From positions 1-42,584 of the IMG/VR virus record IMGVR_UViG_3300034109_000450: a stretch of DNA of 42,584 nt. The stretch is one strand, 5' to 3'. The translations under genes were made by a program, and so were the position numbers. The DNA comes from a virus. Below are positions 2,269-24,860 of this stretch, piece after piece; within the stretch, counting starts at the first letter, position 1, and every line of letters begins with the position of its first letter. The notes under the pieces are model-generated. The model made no database searches. It saw nothing but the letters and a program-made list of their open reading frames with translations, and had not been told where the DNA came from.

Positions 2269-2634
2269 TTACGCCTGCTCCGCTTGGAAGGTTTTGTAGA
2301 TCTGAGACAGAACCATGTCTGCATCCAGTAGGGCTGCTCGATCTCCGGGGAACGAGGACATGTCGTCCGGGGTGCGGTAACGCAACCGCTGCGCCAGTTG
2401 TTCGATGCACTCCTGTGACTTCGAGGTTAAGTGCCTGTACATGATTAAGGTGGATCGCAGATCCGCGATTACCTGCGCTTGTCTGTTGTGCGCCTCAACG
2501 TATTGATTGATTTGTGTTTCCATATATTTGATTTCGTTTGTTAGTTTACCGACAGTTTCACCTATATCGATCTGTTGTTGCAGTCGCAAGGTTTTTATTT
2601 GCTCCATCAGGTTATCGATGACTTGTGCGCTCAT
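2269..2634 (-). CDS. Coiled-coil phage protein, hypothetical
   Basis: 121 residues beginning MSAQVIDNLMEQIKTL. Heptad-like Leu/Ile spacing across residues 5-80 suggests a long coiled coil, followed by a short Asp/Pro-rich segment. It starts with an ATGA overlap at the end of the helicase C-terminal piece (2631-2634), so its translation is probably coupled to that gene. No family recognised. Confidence 0.6.
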   Translation of the reverse strand: MSAQVIDNLMEQIKTLRLQQQIDIGETVGKLTNEIKYMETQINQYVEAHNRQAQVIADLRSTLIMYRHLTSKSQECIEQLAQRLRYRTPDDMSSFPGDRAALLDADMVLSQIYKTFQAEQA

Positions 2635-3227
2635 TTTGGTAGAGAGAAGAACTTTGCGTGCCTGCCTGAAAAGCCTAGCTTGGTGCTTACGCCCGATGGG
2701 CCTGAGCGTTGAATAGGGATGCTAATCTCGCGCTCTCCAGCATCTTCCGTGAGCTTGACGATCACAACCGCAGTCGCGTCTTGTCCGATTGCCCGGCTCT
2801 CGCGTGCCCTGCCCTGCTCATTAAGTTGCGTAATGGCAAATATCACGCACCCAAGTTCAAGGCCCAGCAAACGCAACCTGCGGCTAACCTCGGCCACCTC
2901 ACGCTCACGGGTGATGTCCTTGTGGCTTGTCAGGTCACAGCGCACTAGTTGGATATAGTCAACAAACAAGATCTTCAGTCCGTCCTTTGACTTACCCATC
3001 GCTCGCGCTGCTGCCACTATGGACGCGATATCATGCAGATCATCACGGATCACAATCGGCACCTTATTGAGTGCGTTCATAGCCTTGAACACACCCCGCA
3101 TCTCGCCCTCGCTTTTCACGCCCTCCGCCAGAGAGCGCAAAGATACCTCACCTAAGTTGGCTACAAGTCTATCAATGATCTGCTGGGCAGACATTTCCAG
3201 ACTCACTATCATTATTCCTTTTTTCAT
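2631..3227 (-). CDS. DnaB-type replicative helicase, C-terminal piece (Walker B half)
   Basis: 198 residues that begin exactly where the N-terminal piece at 5281-6000 stops. They include the strand and catalytic glutamate (MIVSLEMSAQQ), Walker B (ILFVDYIQLV), the ITQLNEQGRARESRAIGQDA sensor region, and a C-terminal IQRSGPSGVSTKLGF segment matching the DnaB K-x-R-N-G-P-x-G box. Walker A is absent because it sits in the other gene. The two genes are separated by four inserted genes. ATG 3227 lacks an upstream SD; an internal ATG at 3212 has AAGGA just before it, so translation may begin there. Both pieces appear intact, so a two-subunit helicase is plausible; that assembly is inference. Confidence 0.85.
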   Translation of the reverse strand: MKKGIMIVSLEMSAQQIIDRLVANLGEVSLRSLAEGVKSEGEMRGVFKAMNALNKVPIVIRDDLHDIASIVAAARAMGKSKDGLKILFVDYIQLVRCDLTSHKDITREREVAEVSRRLRLLGLELGCVIFAITQLNEQGRARESRAIGQDATAVVIVKLTEDAGEREISIPIQRSGPSGVSTKLGFSGRHAKFFSLPK

Positions 3228-4995: not shown

Positions 4996-5315
4996 TTCTT
5001 GTAGCTGTTGTTGGCTTGTAATGCTCCGCAACCAATTATGTTACCACCCTGATCACGAATCAGTTTTGACGGACTAAGCAGGTCTGCTCGTTCCGGCAGG
5101 CATTCACGGATATACGAACTCACAACGTATAGCACGCCTTTTTTTGCAGGAGGCATATTTGATACGTCTCCCTGTGTGGAGAGCATGATCGGGATGCCTT
5201 CCACGGAGTCTACCTGCGAGAGGTACGAGTGGCTGCGCGGGATTGTGCCTGATGGTTCGATGTCACCGTACCCGGTGATGTTAATTTTGTGCGGCGTTAA
5301 GTTGACTAATTTCAT
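4992..5315 (-). CDS. Conserved phage hypothetical protein (NLTPHxI type)
   Basis: 107 residues beginning MKLVNLTPHKINI, the opening of a widespread small phage protein; the following EPSGTIPR segment and the LYVVSSYIRE and ADLLSPSKLIRDQ segments also fit that type. The 5' end overlaps the last 35 bases of the helicase N-terminal piece in another frame, so this gene forms the left border of the insertion. Function unknown; it is usually found among replication or accessory genes. Confidence 0.7.
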   Translation of the reverse strand: MKLVNLTPHKINITGYGDIEPSGTIPRSHSYLSQVDSVEGIPIMLSTQGDVSNMPPAKKGVLYVVSSYIRECLPERADLLSPSKLIRDQGGNIIGCGALQANNSYKK

Positions 5316-6000
5316 GTTTGATTATGTTTGCGATTACGTTAAGTACCCAAGTTGTTTTCCCTGATTTTGTTTCGCCACCAACGACGATCAAATCTGTTTC
5401 GCGCATCGGTGTCATGTTATCAATCTCTGGAAAGCCGGTTCTGATTCTGGTGCTGTTGTCATCACCAGTCTCATAGCGTGTAGTTGCCTCCATTAATTGA
5501 GCTTTAGTGTCAAGCACTTTAGGAGGAGCAATCTCATTTTGCACTCCTTCCGATACTGCCACTAGTCCTGTAAGGAACTCATTCAAGTCCCCGGATCGGA
5601 TATCCGTCTGTGCGTTGTGCAATACTATCTGCATAGTCCTGCGCTTTGCTGCTGTACGAGTTAGCTCGATGAACTCACTAGCGAGCGACAAGATCGGACA
5701 GGCTGTGTACAAGTCACTCAACTGATAAAACTCCAGATGAGTATCTTTGCGTGCCAGCTCGTAGATGACGCGGATGTCAGTCGCCTTACCTTGAGCCGCC
5801 TGCTGGAGGGTGATCTCTGCAATGTTTCGGAGTTGGATGTCGAAGATGTCAGCAACGCTAAAGGCTGCTTCAGTTATCTTTAGCAACGCCTCGTCCGGGT
5901 TGTTCAGGATGATACTGACAAGTCCTTTCTCGGCCTCCTCTGCACGGCAGAACTCAAGATCCGGCGTTGGGTTACCACCCTTCTGTTTGCGTGTTTGCAT
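5281..6000 (-). CDS. DnaB-type replicative helicase, N-terminal piece (Walker A half)
   Basis: 239 residues. Residues about 18-115 resemble the helical DnaB N-terminal domain (primase and loader contact), then a linker and TGFPEIDNM lead into the RecA-like core with Walker A (GGETKSGKT, 208-216). The frame ends soon after the Walker A helix, and its last ten residues (EISQLNAAQN) are read out of frame from the next gene. The remaining core is encoded at 2631-3227. Counting from GKT to SLEM across the two pieces gives 21 residues, the same as E. coli DnaB, so nothing seems missing. No intein residues are visible at the cut. Confidence 0.85.
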   Translation of the reverse strand: MQTRKQKGGNPTPDLEFCRAEEAEKGLVSIILNNPDEALLKITEAAFSVADIFDIQLRNIAEITLQQAAQGKATDIRVIYELARKDTHLEFYQLSDLYTACPILSLASEFIELTRTAAKRRTMQIVLHNAQTDIRSGDLNEFLTGLVAVSEGVQNEIAPPKVLDTKAQLMEATTRYETGDDNSTRIRTGFPEIDNMTPMRETDLIVVGGETKSGKTTWVLNVIANIIKHEISQLNAAQN

Positions 6001-8337: not shown

Positions 8338-8496
8338 TTATCTGCGTTTTGCTGCTTTTGCGTGCTGCTGACGCGCAGCATCTTTTTGTACGCGGTAGGC
8401 AATAGCAACTGCCTGCTTCTGTGGCTTCCCAGCTCCCAGCTCGCGGCGAAGGTTCTCAGTAAAGGCTTTATCGGATGGAGATTTAACGAGTGGCAT
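8338..8496 (-). CDS. Small conserved phage protein, Lys/Arg-rich
   Basis: 52 residues from MPLVKSPSDKAFTENL. The MPLVKS...AF-x-x-N-x-x-x-E...AGKPQKQA-x-AIAY pattern is a common small phage protein type. A basic tail (HAKAAKRR) follows. The start at 8496 overlaps the end of the 1564-residue gene by 14 bases. Function unknown; nucleic-acid binding is possible from the charge. Confidence 0.65.
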   Translation of the reverse strand: MPLVKSPSDKAFTENLRRELGAGKPQKQAVAIAYRVQKDAARQQHAKAAKRR

Positions 8497-11400
8497 ATTT
8501 CTTTTGGTATTTGGTTTGAGCCCTTTGCAGGGTGTCACGGTAGTTGTTGTACAGTCCTTCGGCAGACAGCTTGCCAGCCGTTGTCACGACGTAAAGCTGG
8601 AAGTTGCCCTTTGGAGTACGGGTCACGATCATGTTCGATGGTAACCGAGGTTCATCAATTGGAGTGACAATATCTACAGTTGGTTCTGGTAAATATGTAG
8701 TTGCATCAATCTTGGCTGGCTCGCGCTTGGGCATTTCAGAAGATTTCTTTGCAAGCTCTGCAAGGATTCTTGCCATTGACTCAGTGGGCTTGGTTCTAAG
8801 CAAATCAGGCCTATCAGCGGCTTGTTTTGCAAGTTCTCCCAAAATACGCGACATCGCCTTTGTTGGGTTAGTGCCAAGCAAGTTGACAACCCGTGGAGAG
8901 ATCACTTGCCTTACTGGCGCAGCTTCCCTTGGAAGGCCAACAGCACTCAAAGCCTCAAAGCCAGCATATGTGCCGGGTGCCGTTGGTCTTGGTGTTGGGC
9001 CAAGATCTCTACGTACAAAAGAAGGAGCAACTTCAAGCCTTGCTATGGCCTCAAGTTCAACAGGAGCAACCTGCTTTCTCTTACTTGGTTTCTTGCGAAG
9101 AATCTCTCGGGTTTCTTCAACATCCAAGAATGGCGCATCACGTTCAGCCAAGGCTCGCTCAACATCAGCCTTAAACAGCGCCATCTCTTTCTCGGATAAC
9201 TCGCCCATTCCAGCAGCTCTAGCAACGGCTTTGCCACCAAGTTTCTGTTGTTGCTGTGTAGCGATCCTATCGAGAGCTTGTCTAGCAATTCCGTTTTGCG
9301 CTTCTGCTGCGTCTTTAAGGAACTGTGCCTTTTGATTCTTAGTAAGCTGCGAGAATCCAGCAAACGATTCAGCCTTCCTTAGCAATTCACTTTGAGCTTC
9401 AACCGCTGCCTGCTCTACAATGGACGGCTTAATCTTGCCCTTTGCACGCTGTGGTTCGGCTCGCTTTGGCATTGCCTCTTGCTTTGCCTGCCCAGCAGAC
9501 GCCAACCATTCGGTCATGATCCGCACTGGAGCCTCTTCCTCCATTCTTGCACGCATAGCCTTTGCCTGTTCGGCTTGCCTTGCGATTGCTGCTGGACTGC
9601 GTGGAGAGAAGCGGATGTCAGCTTGGTTTAACTTAGTCTGCGCCTCGATAAAATCCTCGTAGATGCCAGTCAAAGATCCATCTTTACCGTATACCTTTGT
9701 TTTACCATTAGGCTGGATGAATGCTCTGCGCCCCGTTTCCGGGTCAGTAACAACCCTCTTGTCTCCGAGTGTCTCGGATATGGAGGTTGATGGGCTGAAG
9801 TTAGATCTTTGATTTGGGACAAACCTTGCAAGGTCAACATTCACGTTGACTGGCATTCCATTAGGATCAGCGTAAAGCTGTACGTTACGGATACCATCGA
9901 GTCGAATGTCATTGGAGACACTCCTCTCGCGAGCCATCGCAGCCTGACGGGCCTCACCCTTGACGTTATATGCTGTTACCTGCCGCTTTGGCAGTTCAGC
10001 AACAGAACCTATGAATGGTTCATTAATTCTCTTCTCAGAAGGAAATGCCTTCCTTGGCTCAATGCCAGCAGACAAATGCAGTAGGTCACGAAGGATTGTT
10101 GCGCTTTCCTTGCTTGCCTGTGGAAACGCTGCTCTAAGTGCATCTGCACCTGGAAGCGCCCCTGCTGCTGAATAGTTCTCGATGTGAGTCTTTACGATTG
10201 GAACAAGGTCTTTAAGCGTGTTGATACCAAACTGGGCCAGCGCACCATCAATCTTCTCCATTCCGGGAAGAAGCCTTTGATAGTTGATGACATCGTTCAG
10301 AAGACTGAGGTTGAAGACTCCGCCAATAGGGCCACCCTTTTGGGTTTGTTGCATACCAAGCGGCAGCACGACTTGCTGTCCACTAAATGCGTAGCTTCGT
10401 TCACTTGTCTCTTTGCCAATGTTCATGTCGTAATCAACGACAATTAGGCTTCCGTCCTTTGCGGCTTGATTAAAACGAGCAACAGCATCTCTGTTCTCTG
10501 GCGCAATTAACGGCTTCCCATGGTGTGTCTGAATGTTAAACAGACCTTCAAGCTGCTGATTATCCAAGTACTTGCTATAAACAATCGGAGATCCCGGCTT
10601 TATTTTAGTGGTGTTGCCGAAGTAAACACCAAGTCCACTCATCTCTGGATCGAAAACTTTTTCACCAGTAATTTTGGCAAACTGCTGAAATGTGATGTTG
10701 TGATACTTGTCCTTGTCAGACTTTTTTGTCTCAGACCCAGCCTTCGCGCCACTCTTCTGATCTACCGCATGAGTATCTTCATACCGAGGTTCTGGACGAG
10801 TGCCAGTTACCTGCGTGCCATCAGGCAGCTTATCGTTGATCTGGATTCCAGCCTCTTCTGCCGGAGACGGTTTCCGTGCCCTTTGCTTAACTGGTGCGCC
10901 GGGTCGATCAACTGGGAAGTAGCGTCCATCACCTTTATCGAAGTAAAGGATGGCATTCTTCATTTTCTGGGCAATACCAGAAAGAACAGGGTCATTGATT
11001 AGCTTGCCATCTTTGTAGTAGAAGCCAGTAATCGGGTCGCGAGTTGGAGCTGAAGGCTGAAGATTAAGGCCAGAGTTGATCTCAAACAGTCCCTTGCGGA
11101 TGATGTCTCCAATAAAGTTCTGGTTGCCTCGGCCAACCTGCAAGACAGTTGGATCTTCATTCTTAAGGTATTCACCAACTCCGTTTGCTGCCCACTCTTC
11201 AGCTAGTGTGATTGCCGCTTGTTGCCGTACTTCTGGTGGAAGATTAACGTCCTTAGCAATGGCAAGATCTCTGCCAAACTTAGCAGCAGCCTGCGGATTG
11301 CCCTGCACCTGAGTATCATAATATCGCTGACCAAGCTGAATAAGCGGATCAAGTGCAGCAGACAACCCTCCGCGATCTACAATCAAGTCAGAGATGATCT

Positions 11401-13177
11401 TCTTGCCAGCTTCACGGCCAACAAACGCATGAGTGACTTCCTCGACTGCACTTGCTGGGTTAATCTGATCGACGTTGATTAAGATGGTAGAACGCTTGCC
11501 GTCATAGCCTGGAGTAATCCGCACTCCCTTGCCCATTGCCTCACCAACGCCACCTAACGACTCAGGCAGCACGGTAGAGTTGTCAATGAACCCAACGTCA
11601 TTGCCAGAGAACTCTGCACTCTTAAGGATTGCAAAGATGCGAGCCTTGTCCGTTGTGGACATGTTTTCGTTGTTGAGAAGGTTAATTCTGTTCTGAACAT
11701 CAGGAACAGTGACTTCTGTATCACCAACAACAAAGCTGCGGTTCTCGGGGCGATCAGCAATATCCTTCGCCATCTCGCGCACAAACGCACGGTTGCGTCC
11801 TGCTGGGCTGTATTCAATTGCTGCTGGGACTGTGCCCACTAATCCACCAACTGCGGCCCCGGCCATAGCTCCAACTTTTGCTTGTGCCTTAATATCTTCG
11901 CCAGTGTTAAACGGATCTGCGGCTGCTTGCACACCAGATATGCCAGCACCAATAAGCGCACCGTTGATGCTTGAGTCTGCAATCTGACCGAATGCACGCA
12001 TTGCGTGATCTGAAGGCAATACCTTGGCAACTGCTCTAAGTGTGGATTCTTTTGTGCCAGCTTCAGCGGCTTCCTTTAGACCTTGAGCAATCACTTCACT
12101 TGCTGCATCCGCGCCAGCAATCTTCCCTGCCCATTTTAAAGTAGATAGCCCTAGTCCAGCCGCTTTAGGGGCAGCAAGTAAACCAAGTGTAGTGCCTATG
12201 CCAGTAAGTATTCCGCCATCTTCTCTCATGCCAGCGGCTATCCCACCTCCAGCAGCCAAAGTCGCACCTGTTTTCCCGTACTTATTTATAGCCCCTTCCA
12301 AGATCTCACTGCCAGCAGATCCTGCCCAATCTGCTGCTTTGGAAATAATCTTACGGCCAATACCAACGGTAGTTTGCTCTGCAATATCCTTAACAGTTTG
12401 AACCGCAGCTTCCTTGCCCACATTCCCAAGCAACTTACCAACTCCGGGCATTAACACTGTGGCATCCAATACATTCTTGATCTTGTTTGCTTGAGCAGCA
12501 GCTTCAGGATCGAGCGGCAGTGTTCCGCCACCTCGTTTGTAGATCTCTTCCTGAGCCTGCATATTTTTCAATGCGACGTAAGCTCCATACTTGTCACCTG
12601 TGGACAAGTTAAACAACATCTTGCCTGTATCTGCCAAAGACTCAGTTCCCCGAATACCACCCTCTACAATAGAGCCTAAAGCGTTAATTTGCTGCCTAAA
12701 TGTATTGAATGGATTTAGTGCTATTGCACCAGCTTCTCCAACTGCCACTACACCTTCATACAAACCCTTAAGCGCATGAGGAACAACATCCTCCAGCTTT
12801 GCCATCATCCCGTTATCACCCTTGTCCCTGTAGGCTTTTGCCTGCTGCATCACTTTGGACTGCTCAAGAACAAAATCAAAGTCTTCCTGACTTACAGGAG
12901 CAGCTCCGGGCTGCATCATCTCTAATGCAATGTTCTGAGCAGTCTTTGGGAACTGAGCATCAAGATCAGCCTGAAGATCATCTTCAAGGGCGTCTTGCTC
13001 TAGTCTAATCTGAATTGGCTTGCCGTCTTTTCCGTTGTGATACGGAAGCGTAATGATAGATCCAGCAGGGATAATCTTCTGGTTTGGTACGGAAGCGTAC
13101 TGTTCTGGAGCAGAATAACCCCCGTCAGCAGGGTAGTATCCAGAGGCTACTTGAGGCTGAGAAGGGTCTTGAGGCAT
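8483..13177 (-). CDS. Giant internal virion / DNA-ejection protein
   Basis: 1564 residues, the largest gene here. The N-terminus is Pro/Tyr/Gln-rich. Residues about 300-450 contain several Gly/Ala-rich hydrophobic stretches (for example GATLAAGGGIAAGM and GAMAGAAVGGLVGTV) that could enter a membrane. An SAVEEVTHAFVG segment at 577-587 resembles a zinc-peptidase-type E-E-x-x-H motif. The C-terminal third is helical and charged, with a short tandem repeat (TNPTKAMSRILGELAK, then RTKPTESMARILAELAK). Size and place at the end of the late block fit ejection proteins that pass through the tail to the host envelope. No catalytic activity is proven. Confidence 0.6.
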   Translation of the reverse strand: MPQDPSQPQVASGYYPADGGYSAPEQYASVPNQKIIPAGSIITLPYHNGKDGKPIQIRLEQDALEDDLQADLDAQFPKTAQNIALEMMQPGAAPVSQEDFDFVLEQSKVMQQAKAYRDKGDNGMMAKLEDVVPHALKGLYEGVVAVGEAGAIALNPFNTFRQQINALGSIVEGGIRGTESLADTGKMLFNLSTGDKYGAYVALKNMQAQEEIYKRGGGTLPLDPEAAAQANKIKNVLDATVLMPGVGKLLGNVGKEAAVQTVKDIAEQTTVGIGRKIISKAADWAGSAGSEILEGAINKYGKTGATLAAGGGIAAGMREDGGILTGIGTTLGLLAAPKAAGLGLSTLKWAGKIAGADAASEVIAQGLKEAAEAGTKESTLRAVAKVLPSDHAMRAFGQIADSSINGALIGAGISGVQAAADPFNTGEDIKAQAKVGAMAGAAVGGLVGTVPAAIEYSPAGRNRAFVREMAKDIADRPENRSFVVGDTEVTVPDVQNRINLLNNENMSTTDKARIFAILKSAEFSGNDVGFIDNSTVLPESLGGVGEAMGKGVRITPGYDGKRSTILINVDQINPASAVEEVTHAFVGREAGKKIISDLIVDRGGLSAALDPLIQLGQRYYDTQVQGNPQAAAKFGRDLAIAKDVNLPPEVRQQAAITLAEEWAANGVGEYLKNEDPTVLQVGRGNQNFIGDIIRKGLFEINSGLNLQPSAPTRDPITGFYYKDGKLINDPVLSGIAQKMKNAILYFDKGDGRYFPVDRPGAPVKQRARKPSPAEEAGIQINDKLPDGTQVTGTRPEPRYEDTHAVDQKSGAKAGSETKKSDKDKYHNITFQQFAKITGEKVFDPEMSGLGVYFGNTTKIKPGSPIVYSKYLDNQQLEGLFNIQTHHGKPLIAPENRDAVARFNQAAKDGSLIVVDYDMNIGKETSERSYAFSGQQVVLPLGMQQTQKGGPIGGVFNLSLLNDVINYQRLLPGMEKIDGALAQFGINTLKDLVPIVKTHIENYSAAGALPGADALRAAFPQASKESATILRDLLHLSAGIEPRKAFPSEKRINEPFIGSVAELPKRQVTAYNVKGEARQAAMARERSVSNDIRLDGIRNVQLYADPNGMPVNVNVDLARFVPNQRSNFSPSTSISETLGDKRVVTDPETGRRAFIQPNGKTKVYGKDGSLTGIYEDFIEAQTKLNQADIRFSPRSPAAIARQAEQAKAMRARMEEEAPVRIMTEWLASAGQAKQEAMPKRAEPQRAKGKIKPSIVEQAAVEAQSELLRKAESFAGFSQLTKNQKAQFLKDAAEAQNGIARQALDRIATQQQQKLGGKAVARAAGMGELSEKEMALFKADVERALAERDAPFLDVEETREILRKKPSKRKQVAPVELEAIARLEVAPSFVRRDLGPTPRPTAPGTYAGFEALSAVGLPREAAPVRQVISPRVVNLLGTNPTKAMSRILGELAKQAADRPDLLRTKPTESMARILAELAKKSSEMPKREPAKIDATTYLPEPTVDIVTPIDEPRLPSNMIVTRTPKGNFQLYVVTTAGKLSAEGLYNNYRDTLQRAQTKYQKKYATR

Positions 13178-13179
13178 CT

Positions 13180-14340
13180 TTATTGAGGGAGAAGAACTGT
13201 AAATTTAGTGCGAGGACGAGATGTTGGTGCCATTGTGCCACCAGACACTGTTCCGGGCTGAATGGTTCCAGCTTGCATAGTGCCAGACTGCATCGGAATT
13301 GTCGATCCTGCGCCAGTGGAAAGAGTAAATGATCCAGACCGATCAATAGGCTGTTCTACCATTCCAAAGCCTCGCTTAGGAGCTTGCGCCCCTTTAGCCA
13401 TGTAATCAGCAAGAGGATCATACACAACAGGCTTTAGTGCCCCCATTACCTCTGCATGATGTGGTCCTACCTTGCTGACAATCTGTTCTCGATACAACCT
13501 TTCCTTTTGAGCTTGAAAGTCCTTATTTCCTTGCTGTGCAGTTTGATACCACCGTTCAGGATCTGCTCTTAACGAGTCTCCAATCATTGCTGCCAAAGAA
13601 GCGCGCACTTCAGCTTTGTCTGCCTCAGTAGCTTTGGGGTTATTAAACTTTGACCAAGCTGTTCCAAGTACCTGCTTAATGCTACCTCCTTGACCTAAAA
13701 CCAAAGGTGCATCTATAAGCGGCTCTGCTGCGCGAGTAAACTCATCGCGTGACTGGGCATTAGGATTTAAAGCATTTGCATAGTTTTGACTAAGCTGTGC
13801 AACACCATAACTTCTTGCTCTTTCCCTATAGAAGTTAGCAGTCTCCTTGTCGCCCCTTGCATCAGCTTCTTTTGCTTGCACTAGATCTTCCCCAAATGTT
13901 TTAAGCTGTAGATTAAGAATATCAGCTACGTTAAACTTGTTGGAGATTTGGGTAAACCTATCGTAAGCTTGATTGTATTCCTTGGTATCCTCGTAGCGAG
14001 CAAGTTCGGCATCTGGGTACTTGTCCTTAATAATACCACGCATGGTGTCTGCCCCTTTTGCATCTGGGCTAAGTTCTAGCCTTGCAAGTTCAGCCTGCCT
14101 TTGAAGTCGCTTTTTCTCTGCATTTAACTCCCATTGCACCCCGGCTCCAGCCCTAACTGCTTCAGGCAATGTAGAGGCATAGGACTCCAACTGCGACAAG
14201 GCAGCAGCTTTCCCTCTGTCTATCTCCGCAAGTCTACCGTAATAGGCCTGCTGTTGTTGTTGAATAGCAGCATCTTGCTGCTGCTTTTGCGCTAAAGCAG
14301 CTTTAATGTATGGATCGTCTAAAAAGTTTTGAGATGCCAT
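13180..14340 (-). CDS. Internal virion protein, putative ejection component
   Basis: 386 residues. Mostly helical, with Gln-rich coiled-coil character at the N-terminus (AALAQKQQQDAAIQQQQQAY) and a Gly/Ser/Thr-rich repeated end (GTMQAGTIQPGTVSGGTM). It is spaced two bases from each neighbour inside the ejection-type cluster. The composition is like podoviral internal core or ejection proteins. No enzymatic motif seen. Confidence 0.5.
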   Translation of the reverse strand: MASQNFLDDPYIKAALAQKQQQDAAIQQQQQAYYGRLAEIDRGKAAALSQLESYASTLPEAVRAGAGVQWELNAEKKRLQRQAELARLELSPDAKGADTMRGIIKDKYPDAELARYEDTKEYNQAYDRFTQISNKFNVADILNLQLKTFGEDLVQAKEADARGDKETANFYRERARSYGVAQLSQNYANALNPNAQSRDEFTRAAEPLIDAPLVLGQGGSIKQVLGTAWSKFNNPKATEADKAEVRASLAAMIGDSLRADPERWYQTAQQGNKDFQAQKERLYREQIVSKVGPHHAEVMGALKPVVYDPLADYMAKGAQAPKRGFGMVEQPIDRSGSFTLSTGAGSTIPMQSGTMQAGTIQPGTVSGGTMAPTSRPRTKFTVLLPQ

Positions 14341-14341
14341 A

Positions 14342-14962
14342 TTATTGTCCAGTCCAGCTTGCTCCCATCCCTAAGTTTAATTTTCTTGGGTCGCCAAATG
14401 CTGCGCCAGATGGTCCACCGGATGGAACTAACGATGGCAAAATAGGAGATGCTCCAGTGCCGCTAGTCCCCCTAGATGTTCCTGTTCCGAGTAATGCTTT
14501 TAGTCCTTCTAGGCTAACATCACTGGAGAGCCGCTTGTCAATTAATCCTGATTCCGCTCCAGCCCTTGCGCCAACAAGCTTAAGCTGCTCCTGAAGCCCA
14601 AGGTTACTTTTCATTAGGCTTGGAATACCCATCTCATAAAACTGAATTTGAGCCGCAGGGCCGCCCATGTCTTTAGCTGCCTTGATGTAGCCCTTAGCAG
14701 TTTCTGCATTAATGCCAAGCGCCTTCTGCCCAAGTTCATTATTTAAGAATCCCTCATAGGCTTTAGCCTGAGACTGTTGTTGTTTATAGCCTGCATAAGC
14801 ACTGGCTGCTGCGGTGATCCCCTGCGCAATACCAGCTCCCATTGCCTTGTATCCTTCACCATGAATACGGCCCACGTTAGCATAAGCGTCAGCAATGCCA
14901 GCGCCCATTTGGCTCATCGCCTGTGGTGCCGGGCCATTATAAAGTTCACGAGGTCTTGCCAT
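14342..14962 (-). CDS. Internal virion protein, putative ejection component
   Basis: 206 residues. A Gly/Ala-rich N-terminal half (MGAGIADAYANVGRIHGEG, then GAGIAQGITAAASAYAGYK) and a Gly/Ser/Pro-rich end, without charged catalytic motifs. It overlaps the end of the TfuA gene by 17 bases, so it is made from the same message as the YcaO-TfuA pair and is a possible substrate, having many glycines. The role as a pilot/ejection protein is inferred from composition and position. Confidence 0.5.
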   Translation of the reverse strand: MARPRELYNGPAPQAMSQMGAGIADAYANVGRIHGEGYKAMGAGIAQGITAAASAYAGYKQQQSQAKAYEGFLNNELGQKALGINAETAKGYIKAAKDMGGPAAQIQFYEMGIPSLMKSNLGLQEQLKLVGARAGAESGLIDKRLSSDVSLEGLKALLGTGTSRGTSGTGASPILPSLVPSGGPSGAAFGDPRKLNLGMGASWTGQ

Positions 14963-15944
14963 AAGATTTTCCCTTTAAAAGCTGGTACTGATTGGTGATT
15001 TGGACGGCTTCGACGCCAGAAGTTATTGCGTTAAACCAATTTCTTGCATTTTGCTTGACTGTTTCTTTAAATGCAAACGAATTCCATGCCTCATCAGTAA
15101 TTCCAGTTTCTTTTTGCCAAGCGTCTGCATCTTCTGGACAGTTGATTCCTAGGTTCTTCCACATTTTACTGGAAAGCTCATCAACCTGTTCTTGGTTAGC
15201 TCCTATGCCAAGTATTCCGGCAAACTCAGCCAAAAGCCAAGAATCGGTCGCTTCCTCTCGAAGTGTGGCCGTTTCCCAAAGCCGTTTACCGTCCTTGCCG
15301 GTTACATCAGCCGCCAGCAGGCAAGTCATAAAGATACTTTGATCTGTCTTCTCGCGTTGAGTTGGCTTAACGGGAGATCTTGCCACCTGTATAGCCTCCA
15401 GTGCATCTATAGCCTTCTGATTAACGTAGTTGTCTTTAAGAAGGTTTGCCTTTTCGCCAATAACAGACTTTATCTTCTGCCAGCTTCTTTCCATGAAGAA
15501 GATCTTACCACATTGTTGTATAAGCTCTGGATCTTCCTTAAGTGCCTCAACTGTCGCCCGAATGTTTACTAACGGAACAGACAGTGGAACATATCCGTCT
15601 TCGGCACAAGAATGAGCCAAGGCAACTTCCGAATCATCCAAACAAGTATAGTTTTCATACCATTTTGCAATTATGCCAACAGGTTCCATTCCGTATTGTT
15701 TGCACTCCACAGCTCGGAGCGCCCCAAGTGAACCAGCACCAATGACCCGACACCCACGCTCAATGGCAAACAAAATCTCTTTGTGCCAAGGGGCAAGGTG
15801 CTGAGTAAAGTACCCATCAATTAAAACCAAGGTATCTGGGCCTTTAAGCACTTCAGTCGCTATGTCCCCCTGTTGCGCTGGTGGAAGCACGGTCAGCCCG
15901 GATAAGTCCATTCCGTTGCCAGTTGGTCCTATGAACACTTTCAT
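14946..15944 (-). CDS. tfuA: TfuA-like protein, partner of YcaO in thioamidation
   Basis: 332 residues. The TfuA core occupies about residues 1-135 and carries the family landmarks in order: MKVFIGPTGNG, LPPAQQGDI, LVLIDGYFTQHLAPWHKEIL, VIGAGSLGALRAVE, YGMEPVGIIAKWY, and LDDSEVALAH...PLSVPLVNIRAT. The rest is helical and family-variable. TfuA acts with YcaO to convert a backbone amide to a thioamide, as in thioglycine of methanogen McrA; it is thought to help deliver sulfur or the substrate. The start overlaps the YcaO stop as ATGA. Its presence in a phage late operon is unusual. Confidence 0.9.
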   Translation of the reverse strand: MKVFIGPTGNGMDLSGLTVLPPAQQGDIATEVLKGPDTLVLIDGYFTQHLAPWHKEILFAIERGCRVIGAGSLGALRAVECKQYGMEPVGIIAKWYENYTCLDDSEVALAHSCAEDGYVPLSVPLVNIRATVEALKEDPELIQQCGKIFFMERSWQKIKSVIGEKANLLKDNYVNQKAIDALEAIQVARSPVKPTQREKTDQSIFMTCLLAADVTGKDGKRLWETATLREEATDSWLLAEFAGILGIGANQEQVDELSSKMWKNLGINCPEDADAWQKETGITDEAWNSFAFKETVKQNARNWFNAITSGVEAVQITNQYQLLKGKSYGKTS

Positions 15945-17095
15945 ATGCGCCCTCCGTACTTTACATGTTCGCTAAGGTAACCTTCAAGCGTTGGGATCAT
16001 AACCTTTACTACACTACATGGATATGGATTCTTTAACTCAATAACAAGTGGTTCTGGAATCTTGGCGTCGCTTAGTTTGTCTAAAATCGCGTAGATGTCT
16101 TTCTCAAATGAGTCTGTGCTGCAATCCTCGTGAACTGTACTGCTGATGGTTTTGTCCCAAGCAACAAGAGTTGCCATATCCTTTCGAGCTTGATCTGTTT
16201 TGTACTTCAAAAACTTCTCGTGGTTAATATCGTCTCTACTGCCTGACAGATGCACGAGCCGGGCCTGCACGGCCTCACAGATGGCCCTACATTGAGCAAC
16301 CTCTGGATCTAAGTGCGCTGCATATCCCCTGTGTGCTTGCATGTCTTGCTCTGCATCGTAAATGTAGGCTGTATAAGTTGGTATCTTTATGTCTCCTGTA
16401 CAGTCAAATAGAACTGGCATGATTGACTGAGATCTCAACTTTTCAATCAGCGATCCAAGCACTTCGCCTTTAACAGACCCAAGATTAACTCGGTTTAAAG
16501 ACCGTTCATTATGAAACGCGCACTTAACTTGGTCTCTTTCTATGACCTCGTACAAGCCTCCTGCCAGCGCCTCTTCAAGCGTGTTTCCGCTGCTTAAGCC
16601 GTTACTTGAAGAGTAGAAGCATGTTTGTAGAAAATTGTACTTCCAATCACTCAACTCAAGAGTAGCCGCAGCATGCGGTACAATCTTTGATTTCTTGCTG
16701 TGTATACCAAAGGCTTCACACCATTTAATTGGCACTAGCGTATTGTAAACTGCACCATTTAAAAGAGGAAAACGGATTTCTGTATTTGCAAGTTTATGAA
16801 GTGGAGCTGTAATGTGATCCAGTTTGGCTGTTTCACCAACATGCCGTTCAAAGCCTTCCATAATTGCGCTACATATAGCAGCCTCAGAAGTAGCACCTTT
16901 TCCTGAATCAACAGACAGGTATTTTGCGTTTGGTCGAACACATTGGGCAACTGGAATACCAAGCCTATCCAGCCCTGTAATCTCGCTAACTCGCGTAATG
17001 CCAGCCGCATAAAAGTGCGGAGTCATTCTGGCAATTGTTTCTCTTGGAGTACATGCCCGCTGGGCACCTTCTAGTCGTATTTTTAGTGTGTCCAT
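15941..17095 (-). CDS. ycaO: YcaO-domain ATP-dependent cyclodehydratase/thioamide synthetase
   Basis: 384 residues spanning a full YcaO domain. ATP/Mg-binding motifs are present: SVDSGKGATSEAAICSAIME (61-80) followed by GFERH, SSNGLSSGNTLEEALAGGLY (163-182) followed by EVIERD, then GYAAHLDPEVAQCRAICEAV (257-276) with Q277-x-R279, and SGSRDD (284-289). YcaO enzymes phosphorylate a backbone amide oxygen with ATP; with a TfuA partner the product is a thioamide. The C-terminus (KVMIPTLEGYLSEHVKYGG) lacks the Pro-rich PxPxP end of azoline-forming YcaOs, as expected for TfuA-linked forms. It overlaps the upstream ejection-type gene by 13 bases. Substrate unknown; no adjacent precursor peptide gene fits. 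Confidence 0.92.
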   Translation of the reverse strand: MDTLKIRLEGAQRACTPRETIARMTPHFYAAGITRVSEITGLDRLGIPVAQCVRPNAKYLSVDSGKGATSEAAICSAIMEGFERHVGETAKLDHITAPLHKLANTEIRFPLLNGAVYNTLVPIKWCEAFGIHSKKSKIVPHAAATLELSDWKYNFLQTCFYSSSNGLSSGNTLEEALAGGLYEVIERDQVKCAFHNERSLNRVNLGSVKGEVLGSLIEKLRSQSIMPVLFDCTGDIKIPTYTAYIYDAEQDMQAHRGYAAHLDPEVAQCRAICEAVQARLVHLSGSRDDINHEKFLKYKTDQARKDMATLVAWDKTISSTVHEDCSTDSFEKDIYAILDKLSDAKIPEPLVIELKNPYPCSVVKVMIPTLEGYLSEHVKYGGRI

Positions 17096-18153
17096 TTAAA
17101 TTCAAGCGCACTTAAAAGCAGTTTTCCAACCGCCTTTGCAAGCACTGAATTTTCAATTTCCCCTGCAAGTCTTCGACCGTTCTTTAAGTACCATGCAATA
17201 AACTCGTGCGAAGCATGCTTTATCATGTTTGAACGGAATTTTTTCCATCTGTTTGTGTCGGTGCCAAAGCACTCTCTGGCCAGCCAGCAAATCGCAGCAA
17301 ACCCGGCAGCAGAAGCGGCAGCTCCTGCAATTTGTCCAGTCATTGCACTCTTGCCTGCCCGTTCAGAAGCCCTTGCCTGTGCTGTTCCCGCGGCATACTG
17401 CGATTGTGCGTTGTACGCACCGTAAATACTCCCCATGCCAGTTTGTGACTCTGGATTGAAGTACTGCGGGCCAGCCTGCTGTTGACTCATCATTGCGTTC
17501 TGTGCGGCCTGTCCACCAAAGGCGGTTGAGTACATAGGTTGCTGATAGAACGATTTAAGCGCAGGATCTGATTGTTGCGCAAAGTAGCCACCCAAGCCTG
17601 TACCAAGGGCCACAAGTTGTTGTTCTCGGGCCTGACGTGCGTTGTAGCGGTTCAGTACCTCTGCAAGGTTAGCCTGCGCGCTAAGTGCCGTGTTTCTGGC
17701 TGCATAGCCGCTCAGACTTTGATTTCTAATATCTCTTTCTTGAGCTTGAGAAAGCAACGTGCCGTCAGTCTCTAAAGCGCCGAGTTTCTGCTGGGCGTAC
17801 TGTTGGAGCGCGCGGTTGATCCCGCCAACACCCTGAACATTCTGAAACGCTTGAACATATTCACCACCGCGCCCCTGCAAGCCGCGCAACTGCGCAGCCT
17901 GCTGACTCTTCATGTAATCCTCTTCTAGCTGCGAATACGCAGGCTGAAGTCCTCGATACAGTTCCATTTGGCCAGCAGCAGCTTGCTTGGCAATCTGATT
18001 CTGAAGCGTTTGGTATTGAGGTTGCAGTGCTGCCTCTTGAGCATACACCTGTGGAGCAAGATCAATCTGCGCTTGCAGAATAGACCGCATCGACTCCTGA
18101 TAATTCGGAGCTGCTGGCTGCTGTACAACTTGGGTTTTACCTCCTCCGCCCAT
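17083..18153 (-). CDS. Internal virion / ejection-type protein with C-terminal CWLAREC module
   Basis: 356 residues. It begins MGGGGKTQVVQQPAAPNYQ, then long Gln/Ala-rich helices, then a glycine/alanine-rich stretch (GQIAGAAASAAGFAAICWLA). The C-terminal ICWLARECFGTDTNRWKKFR module, followed by AWYLKNGRRLA, resembles a short C-terminal module common at the ends of phage virion proteins (C-W-x-A-R-E-x-x-G). The composition fits a pilot or ejection protein. It lies immediately before YcaO in the same message and contains Gly-rich and Cys-containing regions. Confidence 0.55.
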   Translation of the reverse strand: MGGGGKTQVVQQPAAPNYQESMRSILQAQIDLAPQVYAQEAALQPQYQTLQNQIAKQAAAGQMELYRGLQPAYSQLEEDYMKSQQAAQLRGLQGRGGEYVQAFQNVQGVGGINRALQQYAQQKLGALETDGTLLSQAQERDIRNQSLSGYAARNTALSAQANLAEVLNRYNARQAREQQLVALGTGLGGYFAQQSDPALKSFYQQPMYSTAFGGQAAQNAMMSQQQAGPQYFNPESQTGMGSIYGAYNAQSQYAAGTAQARASERAGKSAMTGQIAGAAASAAGFAAICWLARECFGTDTNRWKKFRSNMIKHASHEFIAWYLKNGRRLAGEIENSVLAKAVGKLLLSALEFKWTH

Positions 18154-18538
18154 ATAAAAGTCTTTCTAGTTTTTTTGTGGTGATTGGAACGGCGTGATCA
18201 TGTCTCCATGCCCACACTTGCGTGATTGGTGATTTGCGTTCAAAGAACTGGTCAAACATTTGAGCAACCGCTTCAGGCTCACTTGCCCATGCCATGTGGA
18301 TCGTCCACAGGCCATCTTGCCTGCGCCACTTCCAATTAAAGTCGCTAACGCCCGGATGTGTAGTCGAGATGCCTGTGATGATGCCGTCGCGGCGAGCCAC
18401 ATAAATACTGTCGTGGACACCATAAAAGCTGAGATATCCGTCAACGTCATCTCGGGATACTTGTCCAAGAAGTTGAAGATGGTTTCGGCATTGCTCATAT
18501 AGTGTATCGACAAGTTGTTCCCATTCAGCAACGGTCAT
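18137..18538 (-). CDS. GNAT-acetyltransferase-like phage protein (T7 gp13-like layout)
   Basis: 133 residues. The strand pair around YVARRDGIITGISTTHPG, the WTIHMAWASEPEAVAQMFDQ segment (strand then helix) and the QVWAWRHDHAVPITTKKLER end match the order of a small GNAT fold, as in T7 internal protein gp13, which is also a short late protein. No clear acetyl-CoA loop (R/Q-x-x-G-x-G/A) is visible, so it may be a non-catalytic structural version. It overlaps both neighbours (17 bases and ATGA). Confidence 0.4.
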   Translation of the reverse strand: MTVAEWEQLVDTLYEQCRNHLQLLGQVSRDDVDGYLSFYGVHDSIYVARRDGIITGISTTHPGVSDFNWKWRRQDGLWTIHMAWASEPEAVAQMFDQFFERKSPITQVWAWRHDHAVPITTKKLERLLYGRRR

Positions 18539-19266
18539 GCTTTAATAAGGAATAAAAGCGCAATGTTGCGCGGACGAGTTTCAGTGTTTCCAGTGATGCT
18601 AGTATTTGCAACGGTGCCGCCAGTGGCTAAAATTTGATTGCCACCCGCATACCCCTGTGCCTGTAAGCCTCCGTAAAGGTGCGAGTGCGGCTGAATGTCT
18701 TGGGCTTGAAAAGACAACATTCCCCGCCCCGGATCAACGTCTCTGCCTTGGTCTAACCCGCGCACAAACTCGCCTCGTAAATCGGGCAAATTTGATGGGT
18801 AGTAGACCTGAAGAGCTGGGTAAGGAGCCGTTGATTGCCCATTACAAATTAACCACCCATCTGGGAAATTCAGACTGCCCCACATTATAATTGTGCCCGT
18901 TGGAACACCCACAATCGACGCAACCTTAGAATCAACATACCCTTTGCTCGCTGCTGTAGTTGCAGTTGCTGGATTGCTGTTATTCAGAATAAGCGGACCA
19001 GTCATTGCCGTTGCGCCCGAAAGCTGCATAAAAAAACTATTAAACAACGTTCTTATGCTTTGCAGCGTATATTTATAAAGCGATCCTATACGTTCAGCGA
19101 TAACGTAATCATCTGCCAGAGGAGTGGATGAGGTTTGCGCTGAAATGGCACCCGGCAACAAAATGGCGTCATCAACGTGGTTGTTGAGGTTATTGGCAGT
19201 TACCTGCGAATTAACGCTGGGGTAATTTGCATAAGTTGTGCCTTTTTGGATTTGTTGGGCTGGCAT
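18535..19266 (-). CDS. Tail collar-domain fibre protein
   Basis: 243 residues. The central VPTGTIIMWGSLNFPDGWLI (121-140) and CNGQS, then LPDLRGEFVRGLDQGRD, AQDIQPHSHLY, and the ending RPRNIALLFLIKA are the phage tail-collar domain. The first 110 residues, with SGATAMTGPLILNNSNPATA and ASKGYVDSK, are the usual fibre shaft. Likely a short tail fibre. It overlaps the GNAT-like gene as ATGA and follows the 647-residue tail gene by four bases. Confidence 0.85.
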   Translation of the reverse strand: MPAQQIQKGTTYANYPSVNSQVTANNLNNHVDDAILLPGAISAQTSSTPLADDYVIAERIGSLYKYTLQSIRTLFNSFFMQLSGATAMTGPLILNNSNPATATTAASKGYVDSKVASIVGVPTGTIIMWGSLNFPDGWLICNGQSTAPYPALQVYYPSNLPDLRGEFVRGLDQGRDVDPGRGMLSFQAQDIQPHSHLYGGLQAQGYAGGNQILATGGTVANTSITGNTETRPRNIALLFLIKA

Positions 19267-19270
19267 AAGG

Positions 19271-21214
19271 TTATTCTTGCGAGATCATTGGTCTATTAGC
19301 TGCTATAGCATAAACAGCCGTACTTTTCAAGGATGGTCTTCCAACAACGAAATTTACAGTGCAAGCAATCGAGGTCCCTCGGGCTGCAATGCGGGGGCGA
19401 AGCGTGCCATCTGAATTGCCGCTAAAGCTGTACTCCAGCACCGTCTCGGTGGCATCTGGGTCGTAAGTGGTCGTGTCGATCCGCACAAAATCGTTCTGTA
19501 CGTTGTTGAAAGTAAACTCCCCTCGGCTAAACCGTTTTTCAGAAGTTCCACCAAACGCATACTCCCTAGTCTTTATCGATGCTGGAATGTGAATGAAGTT
19601 TTGAGTAGTAGCAATTGTGGATTCAGTCTTAACTGGCTCGCCATTTGGCTGAAGAGATGCTGGAAACAAGTTAAATGGGAGTACTGGAGTTACGACAGAT
19701 GTATTAAACTCATCACCTTCGATTTGCTCCTCGCTCAAAAATACTCCACCATACTGGTCTTCTCCAGCAAAGTTGGTGATAATCATCAACCTTCGTTGAT
19801 TGATATACGCAGACAAGATAAAGTTATCTTGGAACAACCCAGTCGGATAATAGTCAATTGACTCCCACGCTTGGTTAAGTGTGTTGTAGACTAGGATCTT
19901 GTCGTTCCTCGTCGCCGTGCCAGTAGGCATGGCAATGTAAAAGCGGTTGTTAAAGTAGGTCGCAACCGAGTTTTGAACGGCGTTGTAGTTTACGGTGTCA
20001 AAGAAGTCTGCAATTGGCTCACTGAGCGGCAGCGTGTTACCTAGCAGCTTCAGGTCAAGCTGAGGTGTCAGCATGTGTACACCGTTGGCAGACAAGAAAA
20101 AGACAAACTGACCAGCAGCCACAATTGAACGTCTAGCCAGACAGCCAATCTCAGTTGTTACCACAGTTGTGCTGCTCTGCGCTCCGGGCGGAGAGCCAAT
20201 GTCAAAGTTGTTGGTATCAACGTAGACAACGTAAACACTCTTAGTCATGAAGACCAAGAACTGGTCCTGCACCCACGGCAACACCCCCACAATCGAGTCG
20301 TTCCCGCCGGTATTGATGATAAAGTTATTGAGCGTTGTGTCGCACTGCTCACTTAGTATGTCACTCACCAACACTTGGTAATCACCATACTTGAGGACAA
20401 GCCTATTCTGGAAGTACAGCCCAAAGTCAGCGCAAGGCACAGACTCTGTAATTCCTGTCACCGTAGTTCCATCCACCATGAACTTCTGCTGTGCAAACGT
20501 AAGGTCGGTCATTCCATCCTGCCAAATAAGCGGCGGCTTGCCTCGTCGAGCTGTCCATCCCGTTTGACCAGATTGCGCGATATAAATTGCAGCAGTTTCG
20601 TTTTTGTACTGGAATGTAAATGTATTTGTTCCAGTAACAGTAATCACATAACTGCCAGTAACTGACTGAAATGCGCTAGTGCTGCTTGTGTATCCTATAG
20701 TGACTTCGTCGTTGTTAGAGTACCCGTGAGCTGTGGGCGTTGTTACTGTAATTGTACCAGTGGCTCCAATTGCAATGCTTGCGTTAGATTGTGTTGTGGC
20801 AAATGTCGTCTTATCGTACTTGCCTCGAAAGATATAGATCTTATTGAGTGCTGTAACGACATCACAGATACCACCTACTGCAATTGTTCTATTGGCAGGA
20901 AATGGATACGCATCACTTAAAAATTCAGGATCTGCCCCTTGAGCTGGCCTGTACAGGTACATCTTATCCGTAAATACCAGCACGATATTGTCACGCCCCG
21001 CGTCGTCAACGTACAGGCCCGATCCAACCATCGTCAGGTTGATAAGATCATTATCCGTAAGACGCTTGGTGCCTTTACGAGGCTGGGCAATCCCACGCTG
21101 CAAGCGAGTGTTAAAGCTGGCCTGTAGCATGCCGGGCTTCAAGTTGGCAGGATCAAGCCTACTAGCAAAGCCAATAAACATGTCGTCACCTTCAGCTTGA
21201 AGTTCTTCTGCCAT
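19271..21214 (-). CDS. Tail/nozzle-type virion protein, beta-rich
   Basis: 647 residues. Repeated strand-turn units with DNIVLVFTDKMYLYRP, CDVVTALNKIYIFRGKYD and KILVYNTLNQAWESIDYY resemble blades of a propeller-like tail protein. The N-terminal FASRLDPANLKPGMLQASFN is typical of podoviral proteins that close the tail tube. It shares one base (TAATG) with the preceding zinc-ribbon gene. The likely role is tail nozzle or stabilisation. Family assignment is by composition and position. Confidence 0.5.
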   Translation of the reverse strand: MAEELQAEGDDMFIGFASRLDPANLKPGMLQASFNTRLQRGIAQPRKGTKRLTDNDLINLTMVGSGLYVDDAGRDNIVLVFTDKMYLYRPAQGADPEFLSDAYPFPANRTIAVGGICDVVTALNKIYIFRGKYDKTTFATTQSNASIAIGATGTITVTTPTAHGYSNNDEVTIGYTSSTSAFQSVTGSYVITVTGTNTFTFQYKNETAAIYIAQSGQTGWTARRGKPPLIWQDGMTDLTFAQQKFMVDGTTVTGITESVPCADFGLYFQNRLVLKYGDYQVLVSDILSEQCDTTLNNFIINTGGNDSIVGVLPWVQDQFLVFMTKSVYVVYVDTNNFDIGSPPGAQSSTTVVTTEIGCLARRSIVAAGQFVFFLSANGVHMLTPQLDLKLLGNTLPLSEPIADFFDTVNYNAVQNSVATYFNNRFYIAMPTGTATRNDKILVYNTLNQAWESIDYYPTGLFQDNFILSAYINQRRLMIITNFAGEDQYGGVFLSEEQIEGDEFNTSVVTPVLPFNLFPASLQPNGEPVKTESTIATTQNFIHIPASIKTREYAFGGTSEKRFSRGEFTFNNVQNDFVRIDTTTYDPDATETVLEYSFSGNSDGTLRPRIAARGTSIACTVNFVVGRPSLKSTAVYAIAANRPMISQE

Positions 21215-22691: not shown

Positions 22692-24860
22692 TTATCGAGC
22701 TAGAGCGTACTTGCTGGGCACTTCCGCGAAGGCTGCAAAGATATAAGTTCCGCCCATTGCATTAATCACATTACCGGAAGCGCGTAGTTTAAATCCATTT
22801 GACAATAAATCAATATCATAACCAGAAGCAAAACTTCCCTCTACGTTTGTCAAATTTGCAGCAAGTGTAGCTGTTACTACATTTCCATTTGACCTAGTCG
22901 TGTCATATAATTGCCAATCACCAGCCGCATCCGTCCGTTTAATCATTACAAATCTTGGCCTAAACCCACAGAACACAAACGGACCAGCAGCCGACCCATT
23001 TCCTGTGTAGCTGCTAAAATGAGAAAATCCTGCAATTTCAGCAAATAAATAAGCAATGTATGGCTGAGATGGATCCGCAGCCGCTCCTATCTCTACCTGA
23101 ATAGCAGAAGAGGTTGGTCCAGTTCCCCATATGCCAGCATCATCTGGAGGATTTGCACTAAAATTAATATTTAAGAAACTTGCGGTGCTCGATGGTAAAC
23201 TTTTATGCCAAAGCGCCCAATTACTTTCTGCGCCTATGCATTTTATAAAATACATCGCTGGAATAACACCAAGTGAATGGTTTATAGTTTGAGTTCCAGA
23301 TGCCAGAGTTGTAAATGATACAATATCTAATCCAGCCTGTATACTCTCCTTCCATTGCCAAGCAATGTACGAGTTTGCACTTGCGTTGACCAGTGTCGTG
23401 TCCGTTCCGAGGCTAAATCCGTTTGCGCTAAAAGCCGTCAACGTGTTTGCGTTGGTCGTTTCAGCATTTCTCAAGTTAGATGAAAGATACTTTCCAGTTC
23501 CCCGCACAGAATCGAATAGTGCATGATTTGTAGCTCCAGGCGTCCGTGATTTAATCCACACAAAGTCCGGCTGGAACGACACGCCATTCACCGTGTTTAA
23601 GATTGATTGCACGCCAGCCGTGCCCGTGTACGTCGTGGCAGCCATGAAGTTGGCTCCATTGACGATGGACGGTGTAGGCAGGTTGTTTGTGTTAAGCGCG
23701 AGGAAGCCAGCGGGGCGCGTGTAGGTGAAGGGGCGTTGACCGAAGTTGGCATAAATAACCTTTGCGTTAGTTAATGATCCAGCATACGGGAAATATCCAC
23801 CTCCAGTAAGACCTGTTGCAATCGACGTATACGTTGACCCATTAACGGTATAATCTAATGCACCGGTATCTGCATTAAAGCGAAGCCCAATTACACTGGT
23901 TGTTGGAGTGACTGCAACTGTTGTTGCAGCAGCCTTATAAACACCAACAAGCTGAGATGCTGTTGCTGCGCTATATGCAATTTCCCAATACCAACTGCCA
24001 CTATTCATTGACATGCTGCCAATAATATTTTGAGCAGCAGCAGATGTAGTTTCAAGATTTGCAGCAGCTAGTGTAGCTGTAGTTATTCTATCCAACGGAT
24101 TCAGCACCGCATAATTCCCTCTGCCATTCCCGCTGTCGCTGTAGTTCGCCGGAACATCCAGCATGCTGTCGTATGTCCCGCCAGCCGTCAATGACACGTT
24201 GTTTACGGCCCAAGTATTGCCATTCCCAGAGGTGTCTGTTCCTAGGGCCGCTAGTGATGTCGTATTGCCAAACTTTAGGTAGAACCCGTTTGTTCCGTAG
24301 GTGCCAACATACTGCTTGGGCGACCACACGCCAGTCGTGGACTCGATTTGACCGAAGGACGATGGAGTTAGTGCTTGACCGTCGATGAAGTTGACTTCTG
24401 TGAGGTAGCCGTCGAAGTAATTTGCAGTATTTGCTGCTCCAAGCTGATGGGCAATCGCAGTGTTAAAAACAGTATTTGCAGTTGTCCCTGTAGCAACGGG
24501 TGTTTGATTAACGTAAATCGTTTGAGCTGCTCCATTTTGAGTATAAACAATATGATACCAAGCAGATGGATCTCTAAATACAGCCGTTGAAGCAGCAGCA
24601 GAAATTCCATTAAGATTCAGACTTAATTGATCTGAATTATTAAACGTAAGAAACGTGTTGGTGCTTGCTCCAAACAACCTGTATGCGCCTGTCAATGCTC
24701 CTCTTTTTACCCATGCAGACCAAGTAAAGACGGTTGAGCTTGTTGGCGCTGCAAACGTCCTGCTTAGAAAGGCAGACGCACTTGACCGAAACCGAAGTGA
24801 GTTCGTAACAAAGTTTCCGCGCCTGAGACTGCCGAGTAAAGATAACATAGAAGAGAACAT
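22692..24860 (-). CDS. Tail fibre/receptor-binding protein with LamG- and SPRY-like domains
   Basis: 722 residues. Residues about 40-175 form a concanavalin/LamG-like domain (FTWSAWVKRGAL, RDPSAWYHIVYT, YFDGYLTEVNFIDGQ). About 255-385 look SPRY-like (SGSWYWEIAYS...VIGLRFNADTGALDYTVNG). The C-terminal half has repeated beta pieces (PDFVWIKSRTPGA, then PRFVMIKRTDAAGDWQLYD). Glycan or protein binding at the host surface is likely. It lies beside the 1295-residue fibre. Confidence 0.65.
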   Translation of the reverse strand: MFSSMLSLLGSLRRGNFVTNSLRFRSSASAFLSRTFAAPTSSTVFTWSAWVKRGALTGAYRLFGASTNTFLTFNNSDQLSLNLNGISAAASTAVFRDPSAWYHIVYTQNGAAQTIYVNQTPVATGTTANTVFNTAIAHQLGAANTANYFDGYLTEVNFIDGQALTPSSFGQIESTTGVWSPKQYVGTYGTNGFYLKFGNTTSLAALGTDTSGNGNTWAVNNVSLTAGGTYDSMLDVPANYSDSGNGRGNYAVLNPLDRITTATLAAANLETTSAAAQNIIGSMSMNSGSWYWEIAYSAATASQLVGVYKAAATTVAVTPTTSVIGLRFNADTGALDYTVNGSTYTSIATGLTGGGYFPYAGSLTNAKVIYANFGQRPFTYTRPAGFLALNTNNLPTPSIVNGANFMAATTYTGTAGVQSILNTVNGVSFQPDFVWIKSRTPGATNHALFDSVRGTGKYLSSNLRNAETTNANTLTAFSANGFSLGTDTTLVNASANSYIAWQWKESIQAGLDIVSFTTLASGTQTINHSLGVIPAMYFIKCIGAESNWALWHKSLPSSTASFLNINFSANPPDDAGIWGTGPTSSAIQVEIGAAADPSQPYIAYLFAEIAGFSHFSSYTGNGSAAGPFVFCGFRPRFVMIKRTDAAGDWQLYDTTRSNGNVVTATLAANLTNVEGSFASGYDIDLLSNGFKLRASGNVINAMGGTYIFAAFAEVPSKYALAR

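Follow-up and report, generated by a model that had tools for sequence, protein, structure and literature searches.

We found that genes for a YcaO and a TfuA protein lie side by side in a putative late virion operon of the phage represented by IMG/VR virus record IMGVR_UViG_3300034109_000450, a DNA of 42,584 bases that was analysed over its whole length and is called the window below (Table 1). Judged from sequence, several alternative cassettes, the pair among them, occupy a single site, the pair apparently being an exchangeable thioamidation module; the reading we tentatively prefer, with a probability of roughly 0.4, is that this cassette may modify the C-terminal four-helix tail of the neighboring virion-type protein c4. 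In the mechanism proposed, YcaO would activate a backbone amide using ATP, TfuA would free sulfide from a carrier of the ThiS/MoaD type bearing a thiocarboxylate (supplied by the host in the window phage and by the phage itself in one subclade), and C=O would be converted to C=S in the protein backbone, most likely within the c4 tail. We infer that the enzymes would be active during infection and would yield a thioamide, with the tail as substrate.

Table 1. Features of the putative late operon around the YcaO and TfuA genes of the window
Feature	Position	Strand	Remarks
YcaO, ATP-dependent amide-activating enzyme	15941..17095	-	384 aa; PF02624, ATP-site residues, dN/dS
TfuA, thioamidation partner	14946..15944	-	332 aa; PF07812 core and helical C-terminal part
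c4, virion-type protein (ejection-type by position)	17083..18153	-	356 aa; gene order, Ala/Gln-rich composition
Pair-type tail domain of c4, candidate substrate	17086..17289	-	CWLARECFG... to ...EFKWTH; AF2
Exchanged block, borders approximate	14970..17375	-	tail codons, YcaO and TfuA; DNA identity
c15, small ejection-type protein by position, right flank of exchange site	14342..14962	-	206 aa
386-aa late-operon protein, ejection-type by position	13180..14340	-	gene order
1564-aa late-operon protein, ejection-type by position and size	8483..13177	-	gene order
Tail collar fibre protein	18535..19266	-	PF07484 4.2e-8; phrog_523 8.9e-39
c1, virion structural protein, backbone marker	19271..21214	-	phrog_3287 3.9e-8

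As the first-pass annotation had reported, the two genes overlap each other (by 4 nt, ATGA) as well as both neighbors, c4/YcaO by 13 nt and TfuA/c15 by 17 nt, and GGAGG is present upstream of the TfuA start. Ordered by protein size, the operon reads 133, 356, the pair, 206, 386 and 1564 aa, with a tail-collar protein and an endolysin encoded nearby, and in almost all relatives c4 immediately precedes YcaO. From this operon we infer that the pair would be made together with the virion. The same annotation had called the neighbors ejection-type proteins, a label favored by gene order and composition; however, Pfam and PHROGs assign no function to c4 or c15, and neither database gave a confident family match for the 386-aa and 1564-aa proteins. 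Elsewhere in the window, the minus-strand gene at 22692-24860 encodes a large protein of virion type that contains a Laminin_G_3 domain and DUF7483, and a DnaB-like replicative helicase is divided into two ORFs, 5281-6000 and 2631-3227 (minus strand), split just after Walker A and covering positions 161-378 and 382-571 of phrog_19. Genes for an exonuclease-VIII-like protein and a DNA methyltransferase are among those between the two halves, neither half shows an evident intein sequence, and Rfam detected no intron; contig L052 has a C-terminal helicase half resembling that of the window.

The YcaO protein matched PF02624 over the whole profile (1-325 of 325; E=1.4e-56, 192.7 bits, gathering cut-off 25.7), and TfuA matched PF07812 over profile positions 1-96 of 119 (E=9.3e-31, 106.5 bits, cut-off 30), confirming the initial description of a complete YcaO with its ATP motifs and of a TfuA with a complete core. 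The ATP/Mg-site residues E80, E83, N171, E175, E183, E186, R187, R270 and E274 are all present, the last seven aligning with those of E. coli YcaO (EcYcaO) and the first two assigned by motif only; a loss of such residues on alignment, named beforehand as a reason to doubt the pair, was thus not seen. Residues 163-280 align to EcYcaO 179-296 with a constant offset of 16, so that E186 corresponds to EcYcaO E202, and the E202A mutant was used in a coexpression experiment (PMC13063428). Among solved structures, the closest to TfuA is 6xp8 (E 1.1e-19 by sequence; E=3.5e-14 by fold with the AF2 model, mean pLDDT 89.5). The closest to YcaO is 6pe3 (E=1.5e-24; entry title "uncharacterized protein MJ1094"), which we take to be the Methanocaldococcus jannaschii YcaO studied for McrA thioamidation; both entries are methanogen proteins. 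When the window was compared with four close relatives, dN/dS was 0.03-0.08 for YcaO and 0.10-0.14 for TfuA (0.03-0.09 and 0.10-0.15 over the comparisons as a whole), indicating strong purifying selection; the ratios are approximate because many of the comparisons approach saturation at synonymous sites. Both enzymes therefore appear, at the level of sequence, to be maintained and intact.

The same two enzymes, with adjacent genes, occur in the McrA thioglycine system of methanogens (PMC5589413), but the phage pair has its own gene order, is not accompanied by McrA and has a TfuA with a longer C-terminal part. The best NCBIfam match was methan_mark_1, and the scores were below the McrA-type equivalog cut-offs (TIGR03266 and NF033432; 199.4 against 365 and 114.7 against 235.2 bits). 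The E. coli YcaO/uL16 system (PMC13063428) resembles the phage pair in its ATP-site residues and in that the proposed substrate is a folded protein and not a peptide, but operates without TfuA, and the phage YcaO missed its equivalog, NF040716, by a wide margin (37.6 against 700 bits). In thioviridamide-type RiPP clusters (PMC8120280, PMC6511847), YcaO and TfuA are adjacent as in the phage, whereas the phage pair is flanked by virion-type genes and leaves no room beside it for a precursor-peptide gene; membership in such a cluster was rejected for the adjacent positions on the basis of the overlaps of 13, 4 and 17 nt. By the tests made, the pair is thus assigned to the YcaO and TfuA families, outside the McrA-type, uL16-type and RiPP-cluster kinds, and it probably works like the thioamidation pairs of the McrA and RiPP systems.

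Support of a different kind came from related contigs. TfuA adjoins YcaO in the window, as it does wherever the contig is of sufficient length, and in 13 contigs (L076-L087 and L092) a ThiS/MoaD-type protein of 88 aa with a terminal GG is encoded between the two, its start overlapping the YcaO stop in L077 and others. This subclade therefore encodes the full published parts list, namely YcaO, a ThiS-type carrier and TfuA. Of 31 records searched over their whole length, 4 contained ThiS, each of them a member of the carrier subclade; none was found in the window or elsewhere in other pair phages, and a phage-encoded E1 (ThiF) for the carrier was present in 0 of 27 records. The window phage would therefore rely on a carrier and an activating enzyme of its host. 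No small GG-ending gene was found next to cellular pairs. According to PMC13063428, YcaO thioamide systems outside high-sulfide habitats tend to obtain sulfide through a TfuA hydrolase and a ThiS homologue in thiocarboxylated form. Because the in-operon carrier matches this route, we regard it as very probable, from the gene content, that the pair carries out thioamidation chemistry; the earlier identification of the two genes as a thioamidation pair is well supported, the carrier in the 13 contigs being independent support.

A search with c1 yielded 422 relatives in viral contigs, most of the close ones lacking the pair, and revealed four states of the site between c4 and c15: (i) the tail with YcaO and TfuA; (ii) a c4 tail of the CWVAREVYG type followed directly by c15; (iii) no tail but a 280-aa PP-loop gene with a PAPS_reduct domain; and (iv) neither tail nor cassette gene. 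For example, the pairless contigs L424 and L354 share 91-92% DNA identity with the window upstream of the site; this identity stops within c4, immediately ahead of the tail, and similarity restarts at the start of c15, which resembles that of pairless relatives at its beginning and diverges thereafter. On the best c1 tree, built with 31 PP-loop, 9 EVYG-tail, 12 empty (eight assigned by eye) and 16 pair records, the site changed state at least 18 times, and L402 and L403 differ in state although their c1 sequences are identical. Absence of the pair from related phages, with signs of decay, had been put forward as evidence against the annotation: among the closest relatives sampled, most indeed lack the pair, but the pattern is one of clean cassette exchange with no decay. 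Such frequent exchange, including the different cassettes beside one c1 sequence, is what would be seen if the pair were a passenger of a recombination hot spot, linked with the tail only because crossovers occur in the Ala-rich linker; we consider this most improbable, since one border of the block coincides with the tail and the other with the end of TfuA. These borders, together with the strong selection, argue that both enzymes do at least something. In one phage of clade V2 (L431, 3478-4041), an HNH-endonuclease-like ORF, recognized by eye, lies between the tail gene and YcaO.

The PP-loop gene (L354 6035-6877, L428 13634-14476, and L320-L339) occupies the site of the pair in two phage lineages; in the second, which has an unrelated N-terminal part of the c4 equivalent, 12 contigs carry it at or just after that gene. 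Its product scored 39-45 bits against PF01507 (cut-off 22.5), missed the NCBIfam CysH and CysD cut-offs, and showed, in the sequences inspected, no ECGLH, which we take to be the CysH-type motif. The pair and the PP-loop gene were never found together in the pair-carrying loci examined, which are partial genomes. If the PP-loop gene encodes a modifying enzyme, it may be that some phage genes of its family that would be counted as sulfur-metabolism auxiliary genes act otherwise.

Around the window phage, the c4 tail is the sole non-enzyme sequence that varies with the pair, and for this reason we regard it as the likeliest target. It has four predicted helices (AF2 pLDDT 87.8), and its fold had no PDB match below E 1 and matched two uncultured-phage proteins at E about 0.02. 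When a pair-type tail was used as query and YcaO was ignored, 57 loci were retrieved, with YcaO next to the tail wherever downstream sequence suffices. The comparison covered 101 distinct tails that were informative; YcaO accompanies 50 of them and was scored as absent for the other 51. The Tyr-Cys (YC) motif occurred in 42 of the 50 but in 1 of the 51, and a C-terminal Trp in 44 with YcaO against 1 without; conversely, FRxW was found in 5 tails with YcaO and 46 without, and Pro before the Trp in 3 and 44. The one YC tail scored as pairless, that of L037, does have YcaO, cut by the contig end. These motifs were picked post hoc, and the tails come from few searches and include related, non-independent sequences; the c1 tree offers only four supported independent pair/tail contrasts, which all agree (p=0.125). 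In lineage B (L071 and L073), the c4 equivalent has an N-terminal part unrelated to that of the window (E 6.7), yet the tail is 48.5% identical to the window tail (E 6e-24) and the pair is next to it. Such co-travel of tail and pair where the N-terminal part varies would also fit a tail that serves as a docking domain for YcaO-TfuA, for instance to package them in the virion for early action in the next host, but this is an unlikely explanation, as the pair also exists without the tail and the presence of the enzymes in virions is a supposition.

A Cys conserved in 42 of the 50 pair-type tails raises the question of whether the system might instead produce a modified peptide (a toxin or exclusion factor) or thiazolines rather than thioamides of a structural protein, all the more since TfuA-YcaO pairs are a hallmark of thioamidated RiPP clusters according to the RiPP papers cited above. 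However, the position of this Cys is Leu in the window tail, the overlaps on both sides of the pair leave no space between genes for a precursor, and the ThiS carrier and TfuA imply exogenous sulfide, making a RiPP or azoline system very unlikely.

Modification of the c4 tail, our preferred reading, has to be weighed against several exceptions. Four contigs (L046, L048, L049 and L041) have the pair with no detectable tail, although these records may be incomplete. In L052 the pair (8856-10978, plus strand) lies outside the late operon, surrounded by replication genes of the minus strand, and the tail domain sits elsewhere in the record, away from the pair. L036 has the pair accompanied by a tail of the other general type, and in clade V2 the pair of six of the seven contigs is near a gene with an EVYG-like tail. 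In addition, linkage at the recombination site alone could yield much of the tail-pair association. Both the tail-less contigs and L052 would be accommodated if the pair thioamidates a host protein, such as a ribosomal or core protein, during infection and the late-operon site is chiefly one that accepts cassettes. Few protein targets of backbone thioamidation are known, and both McrA in methanogens and uL16 in Pseudomonadota, modified by YcaO enzymes, are core host proteins (PMC5589413, PMC13063428). On the other hand, the tail type changes along with the pair, and the uL16-type equivalog was not matched, so that a host target seems doubtful to us. The exceptions and the linkage effect together are the reason why the tail is held tentatively and the host target is given weight beside it. 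Another phage protein of the shared backbone might also be the target, for example a downstream ejection protein, with the tail linked by position alone; the downstream proteins are present in every late-operon state and the pair is kept where the tail is lost, but among backbone proteins none was identified that is restricted to pair-carrying phages, and the tail type follows the pair, making this improbable. Where the first-pass annotation had left the target as a virion or a host protein, a virion protein is thus the leading hypothesis, with the c4 tail as candidate.

Neither YcaO nor TfuA was found in 50,697 isolate phage records (tblastn, E 0.01), and tblastn searches of isolate phages with c4 and one pair-type tail gave no match. 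With the L036 protein as query, Puniceispirillum phage HMO-2011 was the only isolate phage found to have the tail domain; its gene with a CWVAREVYG tail is followed by genes for proteins of 165, about 500 and about 1130 aa in the same order as in the window, but it has the other tail type and lacks YcaO and TfuA. Alignment searches of IMG/VR retrieved 31 YcaO and 57 TfuA loci. After removal of duplicates, 64 records including the window had both genes, so that the search for the pair in related phage contigs, one of the checks suggested earlier, located it in at least 63 other viral contigs; six records with one partner only all end at the contig edge. In L011 (2137-3145), which is counted among the 64, two ORFs of 119 and 291 aa that overlap share the YcaO sequence, reflecting a frameshift or an assembly error. 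Among the matches listed from 84,980 genomes, the nearest sequences were cellular and 33-38% identical, TfuA was also present at 73 of 80 such loci, and no near-identical prophage copy of the pair was seen. Seven cellular loci (L232, L233, L235, L236, L238, L239 and L240) have tandem YcaO genes, some followed by TfuA. In a tree with cellular forms, also suggested earlier, phage YcaO proteins formed a clade of 28 including the window (support 98/94) and a second clade of five, and a single common viral clade was not rejected (AU p=0.49), the tree being compatible with one or two viral origins of the pair.

The remark in the first-pass annotation that a phage-borne pair was not known to be described agrees with the open-access literature, covered mostly as titles and abstracts, in which we found no published phage thioamidation pair and no paper linking YcaO with "auxiliary metabolic genes"; papers naming YcaO, TfuA and phage describe no phage pair in their titles and abstracts. 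What appears to be new is the combination of a phage-encoded pair, a virion operon, a sulfur carrier that is partly the phages' own, and exchange as a block with the tail of a virion protein, at a site that also appears to accommodate a PP-loop enzyme. It is conceivable, though doubtful, that a phage module thioamidates the tail of its own virion protein and that the PP-loop enzyme at the site may meet the same need by a different chemistry of sulfur transfer. The benefit can only be guessed at, and could be, for example, stability, folding or ejection of a virion protein. If true, tail modification would be, to our knowledge, the first case of a thioamidated backbone in a viral protein; it would add a new class of target, and a candidate substrate that is specific, small and expressible would make viral backbone modification directly testable.
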